Positions 18,405 through 27,005 of a DNA stretch of 64,000 nt are shown one piece after another. The stretch is from Vibrio navarrensis (GTDB lineage: Bacteria > Pseudomonadota > Gammaproteobacteria > Enterobacterales > Vibrionaceae): positions 2,480,001 through 2,544,000 of the forward strand of contig NZ_CP065217.1 of assembly GCF_015767675.1 (NCBI RefSeq), in the 5' to 3' direction. The position numbers and the translations under genes are program-made. The notes under the pieces are model-generated. The model was given only the letters and a program-made list of their open reading frames with translations, was not told where the DNA came from and made no database searches. How positions within the stretch are numbered: the stretch's first letter is position 1; each line of letters begins with the position of its first letter.

Positions 18405-20522
18405 TTAGTTGTCGTAAAAACGACGCCTTTCCCCGGCACGCGTCAACAAGCCGTCGCAAGGCGCGAAACGGTCACCATATTTTTCCGCAAACTGATTCAT
18501 CTTCTCAACCAGCTCTTTCAAACCAAACTGATCCATATAGCGGAAAGGACCACCGAGGAATGGAGGGAAACCGATACCAAAAATCGCACCGATATCACCG
18601 TCGCGTGGTGAACGAATAATGCCATCATCAAGACAGCGCACCGCTTCATTGAGCATCGGCAACACACAGCGCAGCGCAATGTCATTATCACTCAATTTCG
18701 ATTCTGGTTTGAGTTTCAGCAGTTTGTAAACCGACTTATCAACTTCCTTTTTCTTCCCTTTGTAGGTGTAGAAGCCTTTGCCACTTTTACGCCCTTTGCG
18801 ACCATCATTGAGCAGCGTATCAAAGACATCCGGGCCACGGAAACGCTCACCGAGCTCATTGAGCAAAATTGGCATGATCTTCGCGCCGATATCCACGCCC
18901 ACTTCATCCAACAAAGTAATAGGACCGACAGGGAAACCGAAATCGAGCAGCGCGCTATCGACTTTGTCAATCGGTTCATTGGCCAGCAGGATGTGTGCTG
19001 CCTCATTCATGTAAGGCGCCAAAATCCGGTTAACGTAGAACCCTGCTTTGTCTTTTACCACAATTGGGGTTTTGCCTTGCTTTTTCGCTAAAGCAACCAC
19101 GGTGGCAATCGTCTCTTGTGACGTGGTTTCGTGCGGGATCACTTCCACCAGCGGCATTTTTTCTACCGGACTGAAATAGTGCAAGCCGACGATATTTTCT
19201 GGGCGTGCCGCTTTTTCGGCGATTTTATGGATTGGCAAAGAAGAGGTATTGGTTGCAAAAATCGTCTCCGCTTTCGCATTCGCTTCAATGTCCGCCACCA
19301 TTTGTTGCTTCAGAGCCAGATCTTCAAAAACGGCTTCGATCACTACATCAAGATGATTGAAACTGGTGAAATCAGTGCCGCCACTAAGTTGCAGCATTTT
19401 CGCTTGCAACTGAGCTTTTGAGAGAATGCGACGTTTGCGCTGTTTGTCGAACAACTTGTAGTTGTACTTCAGTGCATTCAACACACCGTCGTTGCTGACA
19501 TCTTTGATACGCACAGGAACTTTCGCTTTCGCCACACTGACATGGCTAATGCCTGCCCCCATCAAACCGCCGCCAAGCACGCCGACCGCGGCAACTTTGC
19601 TTGGTTTCGCGTCGCTGCCGTGCTCTTTTTTCATCTCCGTCGTTGCGAAGAAAATAGAACGCAGTGCTTTTGACTCAGGGCTCATCACCAGCTCGCCAAA
19701 GCGTTTCGCTTCAAGCTCCAACCCTTGCTTCATGCCTTTTTCTAGGCCGTGTTGGATCACGTCCAAAATAGCGACCGTTGCCGGATAGTTGCCGCGTGTT
19801 TTCTCGTTGGTCTTTTTCGCTGCTTGTTCAAAAACAAACTTACGTCCAAGGCGGCTACCAGAGAGAATCTTCTCTTTGGTGGTCACTTTCTGCTTCACGC
19901 TGCGCTTACCTTTGTCGATGAACTGTTTCGCCACCTCAAGCAAAATGGTGGCCGGCACACACGCATCAACAACACCCAGTTTTTTCGCTTTTTGCGCACG
20001 CAGCTGCTTGCCCGTCAAAATGAGATCCAGTGAAGGCAAAAGGCCAATCAGGCGCGGCAAACGCTGCGTACCCCCCGAACCTGGCAACAAACCAAGCTGC
20101 ACTTCTGGTAGACCAAGACGAGTCGCATCAGCGTCGGTACAAACGCGATAATCACAAGCTAGCGCCAACTCGAGTCCACCGCCCAAACATGGGCCATGAA
20201 TCGCGGCCACCACAGGATAAGGAAGATCGGATAGCTGCTGGAACAAGGTTTGCCCTTGACTGGCTAAAGACTCGGCCTCCGCTGCACTTTTACACGCTTC
20301 CAACATACGAACATCGGCGCCAGCAACAAAGTTATCTGGCTTGAGCGAATGAACAATCAGCCCTTTCACCCCACTGCTGTCTTTGAGCTGAGCGAAAATT
20401 TCCGTCATCTCATCGGCAAACGCTGCTTGCAGGGTGTTCATTTTTTCATTAGGAACATCAATCGCTAACCACGCGATGTTCTGTTCATCAATCTTTAGAC
20501 TAAACGCTTTTTGCTCGCTCAT
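18405..20522 (-). CDS. fadJ: Fatty acid oxidation complex alpha subunit FadJ
   Basis: Carries enoyl-CoA hydratase and L-3-hydroxyacyl-CoA dehydrogenase activities of beta-oxidation. The 705 residues show the N-terminal crotonase domain with [15 protein letters not shown] and catalytic Glu118 and Glu140, then the NAD-binding [15 protein letters not shown] near 314-328, the dehydrogenase histidine in [15 protein letters not shown], and a C-terminal duplicated dehydrogenase fold. It pairs with FadI as an alpha2beta2 complex. The ATG overlaps the fadI stop by one base (TAATG), so translation is coupled. FadJ is the cytosolic form linked with anaerobic use in E. coli. Confidence 0.96.
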
Positions 20523-21829
20523 TATTCAACCTCCAGAATCATCGCTGCACCTAAGCCACCGGCCGCACAAGCGGTATTAAGGGCCAAACCACCACCGCGA
20601 CGTTTTAACTCGCGCAGGGTTTGCGTCATCATGCGTGCCCCCGTTGCCGCAAATGGGTGTCCGTAAGCAATCGAGCCACCGAGGACGTTGAATTTGTCCA
20701 TATCGATCTCGCCAATCGCTTTGCTACGGCCGAGGTTTTCTTGAGCAAACTTATCTGAAGCAAACATCTTCACGTTGGCCAGCGCTTGCGCGGCAAACGC
20801 CTCATGCATGTCAATCAACGTGAGATCCGACAGTTCCAGCCCCGTGTTAGCGAGCACTTTAGCGGTGGCGTACGTTGGCCCCATCAACATATCGGTTTCC
20901 ACGCCGATAGCAGAGAAAGCATAACCACGCAGATACCCGAGGATTTCCATCCCCAGTTCTTTGGCTTTACCTTCACGCATCAGTAGCACTGCGGCTGCAC
21001 CATCGGTCAACGGTGTACTGTTGGCCGCGGTGACGCTGCCATATTGACGATCAAAGGCCGGACGCAGCTTCGCGTAACCTTCTAATGTGGAGTCGTGGCG
21101 GATGTTGTTGTCTTCAGCAATCCACTTCTTGTAAGGCTCTGGAAATGCGGCCATCACCTCACCCTGAATTTTGCCGTCTTTCCACGCTTTTGCCGCGAGT
21201 GTGTGGGAGCGATGTGCCAGCGCATCTTGCTCTGCGCGCGAAATGCCGTGAGTCTTCGCCATTTGCTCCGCAGTTTGTCCCATAGATAGGCCAGTCGAGT
21301 ACTCGGCGACTGCTGGCGGTACAGGCATCAAATCTTTCAGGCTGAGCGTTTTGAGAATACTCAACTTTTGCCCCAGCGTTTTGGTTTTGCTTAAGGCGAG
21401 CAAATTGGCCGCGAGCTTTTTCGACACACCAATTGGCAACACGGAGGATGAATCAGCCCCACCTGCAATACCTATATCAATACTGCCAGCCATAATGCTT
21501 TCCGCCACGTTCACAGCGGCTTGAAAGCTGGTGGCACACGCACGTGTCACACTGTAAGCATCGGTATGTACGTGCATGCCCGTGCCTAACACGATCTCGC
21601 GCGCGATGTTTGGCGCTTCTGGCATCTGCACCACTTGACCAAACACCACTTGTTCAATCAATTTTGCATCGATGTCGGTGCGAGCAAGCATTTCGCTTAC
21701 CACCATTTTGCCCAGATCAACAGCCGGGACCTGACTAAACTCTGTGCTTTGACGAGCGAACGGGGTTCTTAACCCTGCGACGATAGCAATACGCTCGCCT
21801 TGGCGTGTTTTCACTTCCTGCTTGCCCAT
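20522..21829 (-). CDS. fadI: 3-ketoacyl-CoA thiolase FadI
   Basis: Cleaves 3-ketoacyl-CoA to acetyl-CoA and a shortened acyl-CoA, the last step of the beta-oxidation cycle. The 435 residues have the thiolase triad: nucleophilic Cys98 in [13 protein letters not shown], His in [17 protein letters not shown], and the second Cys in [14 protein letters not shown]. It is the first gene of the fadIJ operon. A GGAG ribosome site precedes the ATG. The promoter and an overlapping FadR operator lie at 21847-21893. Confidence 0.96.
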
Positions 21830-21846
21830 TATTTCTCCTTAAAAAC

Positions 21847-21893
21847 AAGAGGTCTGACCTGATGCATTGTAATCAGTTTGTTAAATTTATCAA
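21847..21893 (-). promoter_or_regulatory. fadIJ promoter overlapped by a FadR operator
   Basis: On the minus strand a TTGATA -35 (21888-21893), a 16-bp spacer and a TACAAT -10 (21866-21871) each match five of six consensus bases. Directly downstream, over the predicted start site, is the 17-mer AAGAGGTCTGACCTGAT (21847-21863, plus strand), which matches the FadR consensus at 12 of 16 defined positions with intact GGTC/GACC cores. FadR bound here would block initiation, and long-chain acyl-CoA would release it. Confidence 0.78.
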
Positions 21894-22007
21894 ACATGCG
21901 TTTAAATAAACGTGAGGTTTGTAGATCTATTGCCAGTATCATTTCCAAGAAATGACTAAATTTCATTACGTTAGCATAAACAAAAGGAAGGTAGGTTAGC
22001 TGCAGGC

Positions 22008-22036
22008 AAAAAAAAACCACACAGATTTGTGTGGTT
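22008..22036 (-). terminator. Strong minus-strand terminator upstream of fadI
   Basis: AACCACAC and GTGTGGTT form a perfect 8-bp stem with a 6-nt loop, followed on the minus strand by nine T residues. No annotated gene on this strand ends here, which is why an upstream small transcript is proposed. Confidence 0.85.
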
Positions 22037-22169
22037 GGAATTGGTATAAAACAATTAACTTACGCCAATTGAAATAATCAGTTTCCTGATTAGGAGAAAG
22101 TAAAGTCAGCCTTCAAAAGGAAGTGTCATCTTGCTCAACACGTTAACCCAGAGGATTAACTAGATGACA
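22008..22169 (-). ncRNA. Candidate structured small RNA upstream of fadI
   Basis: I do not recognise this RNA. The minus strand between a predicted CRP/FNR-dependent promoter and a strong terminator can fold into successive helices. TGTCATCT near the 5' end pairs with AGATGACA and encloses a GTTAATCC/GGGTTAAC hairpin. Then follow CCTT/AAGG, an AATCAG-GAAA-CTGATT hairpin with a GNRA-type loop, CAATT/AATTG, and the terminator stem. A 7-codon ORF (MTLPFEG, 22129-22106) has its AUG inside the first long helix. The RNA is about 160 nt and ends 115 bp before the separate fadI promoter. It could be a trans-acting sRNA, a peptide leader, or an attenuated fadIJ leader. The evidence is structural only. 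Confidence 0.5.
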
Positions 22170-22175
22170 GGGTTT

Positions 22176-22220
22176 ACTATAACCAGTTTGCCGCAATGAA
22201 ATTTGAATTAGATCAATTTT
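22176..22220 (-). promoter_or_regulatory. CRP/FNR-like site with a -10 element (class II geometry)
   Basis: The 22-bp segment 22199-22220 matches the CRP consensus at 17 of 22 positions. Its core, TTGAATTAGATCAA, differs from the FNR consensus TTGAT-N4-ATCAA at one base. A TATAGT -10 lies at 22176-22181 on the minus strand with no usable -35. The site centre falls near -41 from the predicted start at about 22169, the class II activator position. It could also act on the plus-strand sigma factor gene. Confidence 0.55.
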
Positions 22221-22481
22221 ATCTCGATTTTCACGCTTTTAGGCGCATTAGCAAACACGATTATCGGCTTTCTCTGATCTTCATCATCTAAATGTATTTT
22301 TCTAGCAAATCATGCAACAGCTTGTTTGTTTGAATAAACCTTTCAAACCCGCTATGCCTTTAGTACCCAAAAGGTCAGTAATTGCGTTACACTTCGGCAC
22401 ACTTGCTGAGTTTATAAAATTGATAAGACTCATTTTTGTATCAATGCGCTTATCCCACTCCGAGCAAGAATGGAGGCTCTT

Positions 22482-23045
22482 GTGGCAATTTTTCATTTTT
22501 TCGGAAAGAAAAAGTCAGATGATCCGGTCAATCCTGACATGGACAAACAAAGAAAATATGAAGCTCTAGTTCGAGCTTATCACCGAGATTTATACCGTTA
22601 CGCGTATTGGTTGTGCAAAGATCAAACAATCGCTGAAGACTTAGTACAAGAAACCTGTCTGCGCGCGTGGAAATCTCTAGATAGCCTACTGGATGAAAAG
22701 GCAGCGAAATCCTGGTTAATCACTATTTTGAGAAGGGAAAACGCTCGCCGCTTCGAACGCAAACAGTTTGAGTTAGTAGACATCGAAGATTACAGTGGCG
22801 AAGCTCGTGTCAACGACGATGCCCATCACCAAAACGCATGGCTACAAGCACAAATTATGAAACTGGACGTTGAATATCGTGAGCCTCTCTTTCTCCAAGT
22901 CGTTGGTGGATTTAGTGGCGACGAGATCAGCGAGATCTTGGAATTAAACACCAACACGGTCATGACACGTCTGTTCCGTGCCCGAAATCAGCTCAAAGAT
23001 CTGTTAGATTCGGACAAGACTCAAAGGGGGCAAATAAATGGATGA
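22482..23045 (+). CDS. ECF-type sigma-70 family RNA polymerase sigma factor
   Basis: A 187-residue group 4 sigma factor with region 2 (LYRYAYWLCKDQTIAEDLVQETCLRAWKSL) and region 4 with its helix-turn-helix (DEISEILELNTNTVMTRLFRARNQLKDLL). I chose GTG at 22482 because GGAGG lies five bases upstream; an ATG at 22470 sits inside that ribosome site and lacks one of its own. The gene overlaps the next one by 8 bp, and that neighbour encodes a single-span membrane protein, the usual arrangement for a sigma/anti-sigma pair. Its place between fadIJ and two fadL genes suggests a role in lipid or envelope stress. The regulon is not known from sequence. Confidence 0.88.
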   Translation: MAIFHFFGKKKSDDPVNPDMDKQRKYEALVRAYHRDLYRYAYWLCKDQTIAEDLVQETCLRAWKSLDSLLDEKAAKSWLITILRRENARRFERKQFELVDIEDYSGEARVNDDAHHQNAWLQAQIMKLDVEYREPLFLQVVGGFSGDEISEILELNTNTVMTRLFRARNQLKDLLDSDKTQRGQING

Positions 23046-23769
23046 TTTAGAATTCCGTCGCCGTATTTTGTCGGATCCTAAACAGCTTGATGAAGAGATG
23101 CTACAAACACTGGCGGGCAATGAAAGTCACAACAAGTTCTTAGACGATGTCCTTGATCTTGATAGCCAGATTAAGCAAGCCATGAATGTCAGCGTGCCTG
23201 ACGATCTGGTGGATAAAATTTTGTTCTCTCAATCCTCTATCGCTGGGCGAGAGAATATCGCTCGCCCTGCGTTTGGAAAAAAAGCGATGGCGATGGCCGC
23301 TTCCTTCGCCTTTACTGCAGGCTTGCTATTTGGCCAACTCAACTGGGGTAACTTGCTTGTCTCTCCAGCACAAGCGAGCCTTGCCGAAACCGCCGTACAG
23401 CATGTGATTGCGGAGAGTGCTTTTGTAAACCAATTAGATGAGCAAGTCTCTTCGGAGCAAATTAACGCCAAATTGTCTCCTTTTGAGTATCAGTTTGATC
23501 AACGCTTTCCATACCATGTTTACTACCTGAACCATTGCGGCTTTGGCCAATCCAATGCTCTGCATATGGTATTTCAGGGAAAACAGGGTAAGGTGACGCT
23601 CTTTCTTACCAATATCCCGCCAGAAACGACTGGCGATTTTTCCCAGTCCGGTCTGTCCGCCATAGTAAAAGCGGTCGGCAACAGCAGTTTGATTTTGGTG
23701 GGGGAACAAGGGGAAGATGTCGCTCAACTGGCAAACAAACTGGCACCGATGATTAAACCCATGCCTTAG
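23038..23769 (+). CDS. DUF3379 membrane protein, probable anti-sigma factor
   Basis: A 243-residue protein of the DUF3379 family. The N-terminal about 80 residues are hydrophilic and face the cytosol; one membrane helix follows at about 80-105 (AMAMAASFAFTAGLLFG), and then a periplasmic domain of about 135 residues with one Cys in LNHCGFGQSN. It is translationally coupled to the ECF sigma gene (8-bp overlap). This layout is that of a membrane anti-sigma factor, but no characterised zinc-binding anti-sigma motif is visible, so the role is inferred. It is followed by a terminator. Confidence 0.82.
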   Translation: MDDLEFRRRILSDPKQLDEEMLQTLAGNESHNKFLDDVLDLDSQIKQAMNVSVPDDLVDKILFSQSSIAGRENIARPAFGKKAMAMAASFAFTAGLLFGQLNWGNLLVSPAQASLAETAVQHVIAESAFVNQLDEQVSSEQINAKLSPFEYQFDQRFPYHVYYLNHCGFGQSNALHMVFQGKQGKVTLFLTNIPPETTGDFSQSGLSAIVKAVGNSSLILVGEQGEDVAQLANKLAPMIKPMP

Positions 23770-23784
23770 TCGAGCTTTGTGATG

Positions 23785-23822
23785 AAAAAAGCCGCCAACT
23801 TAGTCGAAGAGGCGGCTTTTTT
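23785..23822. terminator. Terminator after the sigma/DUF3379 pair
   Basis: GCCGCC and GGCGGC form a stem around a 14-nt loop, flanked by A6 and T6. It ends the two-gene operon and separates it from fadL. Confidence 0.85.
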
Positions 23823-23854
23823 ATATCAAGCAGACATACCATTCACTCTGATTA

Positions 23855-23883
23855 TTGACAAATAGAGTCATAACTCTATTTAC
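23855..23883 (+). promoter_or_regulatory. Promoter with palindromic operator upstream of fadL (first copy)
   Basis: A perfect TTGACA -35 (23855-23860) is followed at 16 bp by TATTTA (23877-23882). The spacer holds a perfect 9-bp inverted repeat, AAATAGAGT-CATA-ACTCTATTT (23860-23881), with no T-run, so it looks like an operator and not a terminator. It would give a 5' UTR of about 165 nt. The regulator is not recognised. Confidence 0.5.
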
Positions 23884-23947
23884 TGCCACTTACCCCCTAA
23901 ATCCTGTCAGATAGGCTACATTTATTTAATTTTCGCTCCTTTTTAGC

Positions 23948-23964
23948 CAATGGTCGGATTTGTA
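23948..23964 (+). promoter_or_regulatory. Candidate FadR site upstream of fadL
   Basis: The 17-mer starting CAATGGTCGGA matches the FadR consensus at about 10 of 16 positions, with an intact TGGTC-GA half and a poor second half. FadR control of fadL is known in enterobacteria. It lies about 90 bp before the start codon. Confidence 0.35.
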
Positions 23965-24053
23965 TTCGCTATGCTTAGGAATAGGATCTCAGCGAACTGA
24001 GCAAAAGCTCAAACACAACGCCCATTAGAGGCGCTTATTCAAAGGAAAATACA

Positions 24054-25376
24054 ATGACTAACAACACGCGTCTGTTTAAAAAGTCTCTCCTCGCAGTGAC
24101 AGTCGCCCTTGCTTCAGGCCAAACCTTGGCAGCAGGTTTCCAACTTAATGCCCAATCGGCAACAGGTATCGGGCGTGCTTTTGCGGGTGATGCGGTTATC
24201 GCCGATAATGCTGCTGTTATGGCACGTAACCCTGCTGCGATGGCGCTGTTTGATGAAAAAGCGCTATCGCTTGGTTTTGAAACAATTACCACCGATATAA
24301 CTGCAAAAAATGTTCAATATGACGGTTCGTCTGCGGAATCTTATAGTGATGCAGGTGGTACATCGATTGCACCAAATATCCATCTTATCGTGCCAGTAAA
24401 CGAAAAGTTTGCTTGGGGTGTTAATGCTTATTCAAACTTTGGTACAAAGACTGACTTTTCTAACGATCTTTCTTGGTCTGAATACGGCGGCTTAACTGAT
24501 GTTAAAAGTGTAAACCTTGGCGTTGCAGGCTCATATCGTTTAAATGAGCAATGGAGTTTTGGTTTAGGTCTTGACCTCATCTACGGAAGCGGAAAGCTAC
24601 AACGTAAAGCAGGTTCAGGAACCAACACTATCTTGCCATTTAGCGACCCGCAATGTAGTGCTATTGGCGGTACTGTAATAGGTCCTGGTCAATGTTATGT
24701 TGGAGCACCAAAAGGAACGTCTTTAGTGGATGCTGAAGCTGACGGTTTTGGTGTTGGTTTCAACGTGGGCACTGTTTTTGAACTAGACAAAAACAACCGC
24801 TTTGGCCTTTCTTATCGCCACAGTCCAGAAATTGAAGCTAAAGGCGACGTACAGTACCTAACAAACTCCGATAGCAATGGTAAGCTTCACATGCCACTAC
24901 CGGATATTGCTGAATTTTCTGGTTATCATAGAATCAAAGAAACTAAATTCGCTGTTCACTATAGTGTTCAGTACATTGGTTGGAAAGCATTCGATAAGCT
25001 AGATGCAACTATCAATGGAACTAAGACCACGTTAAATGAATACAACTGGCAGGATGGATGGCACTACTCTTTAGGTGGCACTTACTATTTAAATAACGAC
25101 TGGACGCTACGTGGTGGCTACATGTATGACACCAGTGCACAGGATAAAACCACATCTGTATCAGTACCAGACTCAGATCGTCAGTGGTTTTCCGCAGGTG
25201 CAACCTATCAGATAGACGACAAATCAAATGTTGACATTGGTCTGACTTATTTAGTTGGTAAGGACGTTCACGTGAATGAAAGTACCGAGATGGGACCATT
25301 AGAGCTGTCTAGTATTTCTGCTACTACCCGCGCAAACGCCATTCTTTTTGGCTTACAGTACAGCCGTACTTTCTAA
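24054..25376 (+). CDS. fadL: Outer membrane long-chain fatty acid transporter FadL (copy 1)
   Basis: A 440-residue outer-membrane beta-barrel that takes up long-chain fatty acids. A signal peptide (about residues 1-27, ending LAAG) precedes the mature N-terminus GFQLNAQSATGIGRAFAGDAV, the hatch segment of the family, with the conserved NPA motif in ARNPAAMALF. The C-terminus ends in an aromatic residue (YSRTF), the barrel assembly signal. One cysteine pair lies in the loop DPQCSAIGG...GQCYVG, which might form a surface disulfide. A paralogue follows 297 bp downstream. Confidence 0.93.
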   Translation: MTNNTRLFKKSLLAVTVALASGQTLAAGFQLNAQSATGIGRAFAGDAVIADNAAVMARNPAAMALFDEKALSLGFETITTDITAKNVQYDGSSAESYSDAGGTSIAPNIHLIVPVNEKFAWGVNAYSNFGTKTDFSNDLSWSEYGGLTDVKSVNLGVAGSYRLNEQWSFGLGLDLIYGSGKLQRKAGSGTNTILPFSDPQCSAIGGTVIGPGQCYVGAPKGTSLVDAEADGFGVGFNVGTVFELDKNNRFGLSYRHSPEIEAKGDVQYLTNSDSNGKLHMPLPDIAEFSGYHRIKETKFAVHYSVQYIGWKAFDKLDATINGTKTTLNEYNWQDGWHYSLGGTYYLNNDWTLRGGYMYDTSAQDKTTSVSVPDSDRQWFSAGATYQIDDKSNVDIGLTYLVGKDVHVNESTEMGPLELSSISATTRANAILFGLQYSRTF

Positions 25377-25403
25377 GCAAAGTATCGCTTTGTCATGATC
25401 AAT

Positions 25404-25437
25404 AAAGAGCTGGTTTTCCAGCTCTTTTCTTTTTTTT
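25404..25437 (+). terminator. Terminator after fadL copy 1
   Basis: AAAGAGCTGG and CCAGCTCTTT form a stem with a TTT loop followed by a long T-rich tract. The two fadL genes are therefore separate transcription units. Confidence 0.88.
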
Positions 25438-25673
25438 CGCCACGAAAAACACGCCACTTTGAGTGCACAACTGTGTGCTGCAACAGCGATTTTATAGCAC
25501 GAGTGTTCGCTGAAATTAAAAGACACTACAATATTAAACAGTTTATTAATCTAATAATACCAATTCTATAGATAAAAACTCCAAATACCCCAACATTGCA
25601 GAATCTCATTTCTAAAGCAATTACTCTATCTTTAAAATTCTTGCCTACCTATTCACAAATTCAGCGAACAATA

Positions 25674-27005
25674 ATGAAAACCAACAAGACTCTCCTCTCC
25701 ACGGCGGTCGCTTTTAGCCTGCTAACTTCAATCCATCAAGCTCACGCTGCGGGCTTCCAATTGGCCGAGTACTCGGCAACTGGCTTAGGACGTGCGTATG
25801 CTGGCGAAGCTGCGATGGCTGACAACGCAGGCGCACAGTGGCGCAATCCTGCTATGTTGACTTACCTCAAAGGTACTCAGATCTCTGTCGGTGCGATTTA
25901 TGTGAATCCGAATATTGATGTAAAAGGTGAAGTTCGTCACCCAATGCTAGGTAACTCTTCAGCCAGTTCTGAAGACTTTGCACACGATGCCATCATTCCA
26001 AACCTATACATCTCTCATCGCTATAACGACCAGCTAGCTATTGGTTTTGCTCTGGGTACCAACTACGGAATGGAGACCGAACTGAGCAAAGATTTCACGG
26101 CCTCACACTTTGGCAACGAAGCGAGTGTCATCAGCAAAGAAGCGAATTTGAATCTGGCTTATCAGCTCAATGAACAACTCAGCATCGGTGGTGGTGTTCG
26201 CTACATTGTTGCGGAAGGAAGCTTTGGTGCAACAGCGCCAGCAAAGAATGTTGTAGCATTACATCCTGTGACCAACCAACCAATTAGTGTTCCGCAAGGC
26301 ACCACATTAAAATATATGGAAGGGGACGACACTGCGTGGGGATGGCAGCTCGGCTCTGCATGGCAAATCAACGAAAGTCACCGCGTTGGCTTTACTTACA
26401 AATCTGAAGTAGAGCTGAAACTCGAAGGGCACGCGGAGGGCATTGGCTTCGGCTTTGGTACACAGCAGCTTCCTCAGTTGCGCGACAATGGCTATATGCT
26501 CCTCACTCTTCCTGCCACAGCTGAGTTCGCTAGCTTCCATCAATTAACTGAAAAACTTGCCATGCATGCGAGCGTCAATTGGACCGATTGGAGCTCCTTT
26601 GGAAAACTCGAAGCAAACTTAGACACCATCGGCACAAAAATGGTCAAAGTCGAAAACTGGGAAGACAACTATCGCTTCGCGCTAGGTGCGACTTACCAGT
26701 GGGATCCCAAGCTTGCACTACGTACGGGTGTGGCTTACGACACCTCTGCGGTGAGCGATAAAAACCGCACCATCACCATCCCAGAAACGGACCGTACTTG
26801 GCTGAGCATCGGTGCAAGCTATCTGCTCACCGACGACTTAACCCTAGACGCTGGCTTTACTTATATCTTCGCCAAAGATGCCAAGATAAAGGAATCGCGC
26901 GGCTATGAATCTGACGACAAGGCACAGCTAGTCGGCGGCGCTTTCGAGGGTGAAGTTTCTGGTAATGTTTGGCTAGTTGGCGTTCAGGCAAGTTACCGCT
27001 TCTAA
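25674..27005 (+). CDS. fadL: Outer membrane long-chain fatty acid transporter FadL (copy 2)
   Basis: A second FadL-family barrel of 443 residues. The signal peptide (MKTNKTLLSTAVAFSLLTS..., cleaved after AHA) leads to GFQLAEYSATGLGRAYAGEA, with NPA in WRNPAMLTYL and a C-terminal YRF. I chose the ATG at 25674; an in-frame start 78 bp upstream would put 26 residues before the signal peptide. It lacks the cysteine loop of copy 1 and differs through most of the barrel, so the pair is old and may prefer different lipids. The 297 bp between the genes hold the copy 1 terminator and an AT-rich leader but no promoter I would defend. Confidence 0.92.
   Translation: MKTNKTLLSTAVAFSLLTSIHQAHAAGFQLAEYSATGLGRAYAGEAAMADNAGAQWRNPAMLTYLKGTQISVGAIYVNPNIDVKGEVRHPMLGNSSASSEDFAHDAIIPNLYISHRYNDQLAIGFALGTNYGMETELSKDFTASHFGNEASVISKEANLNLAYQLNEQLSIGGGVRYIVAEGSFGATAPAKNVVALHPVTNQPISVPQGTTLKYMEGDDTAWGWQLGSAWQINESHRVGFTYKSEVELKLEGHAEGIGFGFGTQQLPQLRDNGYMLLTLPATAEFASFHQLTEKLAMHASVNWTDWSSFGKLEANLDTIGTKMVKVENWEDNYRFALGATYQWDPKLALRTGVAYDTSAVSDKNRTITIPETDRTWLSIGASYLLTDDLTLDAGFTYIFAKDAKIKESRGYESDDKAQLVGGAFEGEVSGNVWLVGVQASYRF

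Follow-up and report, generated by a model that had tools for sequence, protein, structure and literature searches.

The window, that is, the whole 64-kb stretch of Vibrio navarrensis DNA that was analysed, carries on its minus strand a small RNA (sRNA) gene situated between fadI and a divergent gene for an ECF sigma factor. The features of this locus, from the promoter to the terminator and then the two neighbours, are given below in window coordinates.

22203..22216, minus strand: FNR-type box TTGATCTAATTCAA, centred at about -40.5, the class II place
22176..22181, minus strand: -10 element TATAGT, without a -35 (from the reading of 90 loci and a scan)
22008..22169, minus strand: sRNA, taken as a Vcr043 homologue, ~162 nt with a predicted start; covariance-model match of 190.5 bits, fold z -4.39
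22125..22168, minus strand: 5' compound stem, with arms 22162-22168/22125-22131 and 22154-22160/22142-22148
22132..22140, minus strand: unpaired loop TGTTGAGCA beside the 5' stem, conserved in 48 sequences
22093..22127, minus strand: C/U-rich strand that is proposed to pair with mRNAs and whose first three bases also serve to close the 5' stem
22075..22092, minus strand: hairpin TAATCAG-GAAA-CTGATTA, 98.8% of cells paired
22008..22036, minus strand: intrinsic terminator hairpin and T run, 98.7% of cells paired
20522..21829, minus strand: fadI, the next gene on the same strand, outside the sRNA (TIGR02446, 882 bits, cut-off 711.55)
22470..23045, plus strand: divergent ECF sigma factor gene (NF009170, 316 bits, cut-off 197; TIGR02937, 79.1, cut-off 42.9)

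After the ECF gene, positions 23038-27005 encode a DUF3379 protein (PF11859) and two adjacent outer-membrane proteins of the FadL family (PF03349), read as a lipid-uptake cluster beside fadIJ.

Identity and distribution of the sRNA

The first-pass annotation had described this RNA as unassigned, a label that has to be dropped, as the locus appears to correspond to that of Vcr043 of V. cholerae. In the latter species, VC1046 is presumably fadI. Vcr043 measures ~160 nt by Northern blot, lies between VC1045 and VC1046 and runs opposite to VC1045, a sigma-factor gene, the two transcription starts being 25 bp apart (PMC8545128). The local RNA is likewise opposite to an ECF sigma gene, which is the divergent neighbour in 79 of the 90 loci read (no match to it was found in the sequence stretch at the remaining 11), and its start overlaps the divergent promoter region. 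With its own promoter and terminator, it is predicted to span 162 nt (22008-22169) as compared to the ~160 nt of Vcr043. Sharing place, orientation and size, it is taken as a homologue of Vcr043. The two differ by species; for Vcr043, the literature considered gives targets and no regulator, and an FNR-type box is what the local sequence adds.

What is already known is the RNA itself, in V. cholerae, its existence, its recovery by Hfq RIL-seq and its targets having been published (PMC8545128, PMC9732341). Overexpressed Vcr043 lifts an rpoS reporter about 3-fold, and its levels are similar through growth in LB (PMC8545128), an observation compatible with both the presence and the absence of oxygen control. 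It is one of 11 sRNAs that were validated following Hfq RIL-seq, its targets being grxA, vc0036 and sdhC (PMC9732341), and multiple RNase E-generated intermediates of it accumulate (PMC7398697); two other papers mention it (PMC7695739, PMC9438474). Among the literature matches listed, titles and abstract openings give no regulator of Vcr043. New here are the interpretation of the promoter, the covariation and how widely the RNA is conserved.

BLAST detects the interval in 129/148 genomes of the genus, that of V. navarrensis included, and 90 of these 129 positives were read for the counts of box, -10 and body reported below. With a covariance model, the RNA is found in 206/247 genomes of the family, distributed over 9/13 genera. 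A sample of the order yielded matches in 24/295 genomes, 19 of them from the family and five, weak, from outside it (E 6.8e-4 to 8.3e-3); the latter are taken as chance. The plasmid collection holds no match to the interval, and Rfam gives none with an E of 1 or lower in 21500-22700. The exact core pattern is present in V. mimicus CAIM 602 and V. metoecus OP3H. The RNA is also carried by genome G034 (locus L051), which is probably V. cholerae, being the only one of 227 genomes with an exact match to an ompW primer. Two model matches each were obtained in nine genomes (G051, G038, G213, G176, G309, G314, G317, G323 and G325), representing second copies or weak matches.

The sRNA is absent from some congeners. 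In the 15 such genomes read, the sigma gene lies near fadI in every case (15/15); apart from the absent sRNA, their interval thus resembles that of the positives. One of these 15, G102, possesses at locus L173 the box and TATAGT at the same spacing, the box being 314 nt before the fadI start; the RNA body that follows differs and has its own terminator-like end, hence the same promoter with another RNA.

Fold and covariation of the RNA

The RNA folds with an energy of -43.6 kcal/mol (z -4.39), and none of 200 shuffles was equally good. The perfect hairpin and nine T's that the first-pass annotation had pointed out are present, the hairpin at 22036-22015 and the T's in the run following it. Fold, terminator and conservation, the last far in excess of chance, together uphold the view of an independent, terminated and structured sRNA gene.

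The same terminator could instead belong to a leader or attenuator of fadI acting by read-through, in which case there would be no separate RNA. fadI is indeed located downstream on the same strand in 80/90 loci. However, conservation ends after the terminator in the 90-locus reading, the distance between the core and fadI ranges from 227 to 983 nt among loci, and Vcr043 is a discrete RNA of ~160 nt in V. cholerae (PMC8545128), which makes the leader reading very improbable. As to the promoter that fadI had been credited with, a promoter-like site does exist at 21893-21866, but at chance level, with one site found versus a mean of 2.3 in shuffles of 21500-22700.

The separate sRNA structure was assessed with an alignment of 48 of the 90 loci, in which near duplicates were dropped and three ends extended, using 29 pairs written from the predicted fold. 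Changes on both sides are observed for 13/29 pairs in at least one sequence; the cells with such changes number 67 versus 18.5 in shuffles, with 0/500 shuffles as high. Sliding the partners makes the pairing drop from 98.7% to 24-52%. The covariation support resides in the two helices of the 5' compound stem: both sides change in one or more of the 48 sequences for 11/14 pairs, and the paired cells amount to 99.1% and 98.2%. Being nearly invariant, the GAAA hairpin and the terminator say little on covariation. A helix placed by RNAalifold over the pairing strand (columns 57-94) exhibits no both-sided change and was not adopted. The original annotation had been staked on the conservation of the site and the helices in close relatives: both are conserved, in the 90 loci and the 48-sequence alignment, and the 5' stems covary in the latter.

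The loop TGTTGAGCA remains near-invariant (7/9 columns invariant and one more at 90% or above in the 48 sequences) while the stems surrounding it vary freely, and it may be a second pairing site or a protein site. The 35-nt C/U-rich strand GACACTTCCTTTTGAAGGCTGACTTTACTTTCTCC is identical in 76/90 loci. At three loci (L037, L040 and L042), the segment between the GAAA hairpin and the terminator is swapped for other sequence, the 5' part being intact.

The RNA might also, or mainly, encode a small peptide (MLSKMTLPFEG or VLSKMTLPFEG) over the stretch of the loop and the pairing strand, and an open frame with an ATG or GTG start is found in 46/90 loci. The frame or its start is nonetheless lost in 44/90, including the V. 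cholerae-like G034 locus, and no Shine-Dalgarno sequence is seen before it, as the covarying stem occupies that place. Hardly any credence can be given to this peptide. An assignment as a dual-function sRNA, which would call for a conserved ORF, was rejected on the same count of 46/90 loci.

The promoter and its candidate regulator

The matches reported at first sight upstream of the RNA were recovered: 17/22 bases of the CRP consensus at 22199-22220, and 9/10 bases of the FNR half-sites TTGAT/TTCAA in the box, that is, all but one base of the core. No second place in the 64-kb window reaches 15 matches to the CRP consensus, for which a palindromic version was used; because it is a palindrome, this single place is counted on both strands. 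An FNR half-site score of at least 9/10 is not rare alone, being attained at 6 places in the window. The motif TTGATNTANNTCAA is found once in the window versus 0.05 expected, and 4/100 shuffles contain at least one. Scanning 22000-22480 revealed no sigma-70 -35/-10 pair. The TATAGT without a -35 and the site at the class II place, both annotated at the outset, thus stand, the value of -40.5 for the box centre assuming a start at 22169 that is itself predicted from the -10.

Across the loci, TTGATCTANTTCAA is exact in 85/90. The box is upstream and its centre is separated from the -10 by 28 nt in 90/90 loci, and the -10 reads TATAGT in 81/90 and TATATT in 9/90. Mean column identity in the 90 loci amounts to 0.95 for the box and 0.98 for the -10, and to 0.60 for the spacer between them and 0.64 for the 20 nt upstream; as both elements are near-invariant while the spacer and upstream sequences vary, box and -10 are kept as a unit. 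All eight further loci, seven from other genera and one from a distant congener, display the box at the same spacing before the -10, which is TATAGT in five and TATATT in three. The spacing, fixed in 90/90 loci, supports the earlier suggestion that site and RNA would act together.

Two short elements lie close by. A second conserved stretch, AAATC, is located 10-14 nt upstream of the box (column identities 0.84, 0.98, 0.83, 0.68 and 0.73 in the 90 loci) and is perhaps part of the sRNA promoter or of a divergent promoter. On the plus strand, TACTAT (22175-22180) mirrors the TATAGT of the sRNA on the opposite strand. Given this mirror and the 25 bp that separate the two starts in V. cholerae (PMC8545128), a single bidirectional -10 may serve both the sigma gene and the sRNA, with FNR on the box just inside the sigma transcript.

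The genome encodes FNR, recognised at 506.9 bits (cut-off 228) and carrying the N-terminal cysteine cluster, as well as CRP (403.1 bits, cut-off 266); both are included among four encoded proteins exceeding the HTH_Crp_2 cut-off. CRP half-sites read TGTGA/TCACA, and their G is contacted by CRP. At this position, a T is found in both half-sites in 90/90 loci, and the box is therefore FNR-type: the FNR half of the initial “CRP/FNR-type” label is retained and the CRP half is not. One base of the FNR consensus, an A, is a T in 89/90 loci. The FNR consensus has been given as TTGATnnnnATCAA, with the site at -41.5 +/- 4 in 19 of 23 activated E. coli promoters of known start (PMC3688515). A TTGATnnnnATCAA-like site with 9/10 half-site bases at about -40.5, in a genome that encodes FNR, is what a class II FNR promoter would look like; a class II CRP promoter is at odds with the T's that replace the contacted G. 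FNR is, on these sequence grounds, the best candidate for regulating the sRNA.

It may be argued that the same sRNA is switched on not by FNR but by CRP-cAMP, hence by carbon status, or by another protein of the CRP/FNR family. The 17/22 consensus match, unique in the window at that level, the presence of four HTH_Crp_2 proteins, FNR and CRP among them, and the expression of Vcr043 in aerobic LB would all be compatible with such a switch. The T in place of the CRP-contacted G on both sides in 90/90 loci is hard to reconcile with CRP, and, as a weak additional point, the ChIP-seq study of V. cholerae CRP names none of VC1045-VC1047 in its main text. Control by CRP or another family member is rather unlikely, and FNR remains the preferred regulator in what follows.

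Targets, related sRNAs and a proposed function

The position of the gene first invited a tie to fatty-acid metabolism, and the sRNA's main job might be local, namely to pair with the fadI start and control fatty-acid oxidation. With duplex energies that ignore the folding of either RNA, fadI gives the strongest predicted duplex among the 57 gene starts in the window (-23.0 kcal/mol). An N-terminus filter was passed by 63 of the 90 loci; in these, codon 4 of fadI is CAG in 59/62, against a preference for CAA (68-84%) at the five other Q codons, and codon 5 reads GAA in 60/60, as the pairing requires. The controls go the other way. From 18 congeners without a model match, 15 usable fadI genes were obtained, leaving out two reduced genomes with distant thiolases only and one gene without a start. 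Although devoid of the sRNA, 7/15 retain CAGGAAGT and 9/15 have duplexes of -23.4 to -27.2, at least as strong as here, while 5/8 of the further positive loci pair weakly (-11.0 to -14.2). Strong duplexes without the sRNA and weak ones with it indicate that the fadI sequence is not kept for the sRNA; fadI is not claimed as a direct target, and a mainly local role is quite unlikely. The tie to fatty-acid metabolism thus holds for position and not for pairing. Codons 4-5 (CAG GAA) of fadI are nearly fixed in the filtered loci and are also present in 7/15 sRNA-less genomes.

A different picture emerges for sdhC. The GACACTTCCTTTTGAAGGCTGACTTTACTTTCTCC strand is predicted to pair with its start region at -24.8 kcal/mol here, which beats 57/57 gene starts of the window, and 23/2000 shuffled seeds were as good. 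The comparison was extended to 24 genomes: the duplex ranges from -19.6 to -24.8 in 16 congeners with the sRNA, from -14.0 to -18.1 in four congeners without it and from -17.5 to -20.3 in four positives of other genera. This difference between sRNA-positive and sRNA-less genomes is only a hint, as the positives of other genera overlap the sRNA-less range and the species are related. Published as a target in V. cholerae and predicted to pair here, sdhC is the best-supported target. For grxA, a contiguous pairing over the Shine-Dalgarno sequence is predicted here (-19.7), and pairing is weak in many other genomes (-10.2 to -15.2).

Succinate dehydrogenase has attracted other sRNAs: Spot 42 and RyhB, regulated by CRP and Fur, respectively, act on sdhC. 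The local sRNA would share with them the action on the sdhC mRNA, as predicted here, yet differs in its candidate regulator and in sequence, the latter in line with the Rfam result for 21500-22700 given above. The closer parallel is FnrS of E. coli (Rfam RF01796, named frnS there), which has a C/U-rich unpaired stretch, as the local sRNA has, and whose gene occupies a different genome place. FnrS acts on mRNAs of aerobic metabolism, as is proposed for the local sRNA. In E. coli, the FNR site of fnrS is centred at -42.5 (PMC3688515), a class II position like that predicted for the FNR-type box here. The two nevertheless match neither in sequence nor in structure: RF01796 scores above its gathering threshold in 0/11 genomes, with one match in a list of 14 control genomes headed by E. 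coli, and above the cut-off in 0/7 genomes of the genus. Most likely, the local sRNA works like E. coli FnrS, by analogy, without being a member of the FnrS family.

Taken together, we favor, with a probability of roughly two in three, the reading of the local Vcr043 copy as an FNR-induced, Hfq-dependent trans-acting sRNA that pairs via its C/U-rich strand with mRNAs of aerobic metabolism. The gene anatomy, the covarying structure, the conservation, the fixed promoter geometry and the location matching Vcr043 are observed here; FNR as the regulator, the low-oxygen induction and the pairing sites are inferred. When oxygen is scarce, active FNR would bind the TTGATCTAATTCAA box, centred at about -40.5, and recruit RNA polymerase to the TATAGT -10 that stands without a -35. 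The ~162-nt transcript would end at its own terminator and act with Hfq in trans, the C/U-rich strand, flanked by the 5' compound stem and the GAAA hairpin, presumably pairing with ribosome-binding and start regions. Such pairing would lower the translation of aerobic-metabolism mRNAs, sdhC being the best supported and grxA partly so; on rpoS, the sRNA would activate.

A broader proposal, possible but somewhat short of an even chance, is that a counterpart of FnrS arose independently in the Vibrionaceae: induced by FNR, it would lower aerobic functions, succinate dehydrogenase included, and raise RpoS under oxygen limitation, with FNR on the same box also blocking the divergent ECF gene, whose promoter overlaps the box. 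The fixed FNR-type site opens the way to a direct test of the signal inducing Vcr043, and makes this sRNA a candidate for the anaerobic sRNA of a group without an FnrS match (0/7 genus genomes). If the proposal is true, oxygen, RpoS and the TCA cycle would be joined in vibrios, and the sRNA may help these bacteria reduce their aerobic metabolism once oxygen is exhausted.
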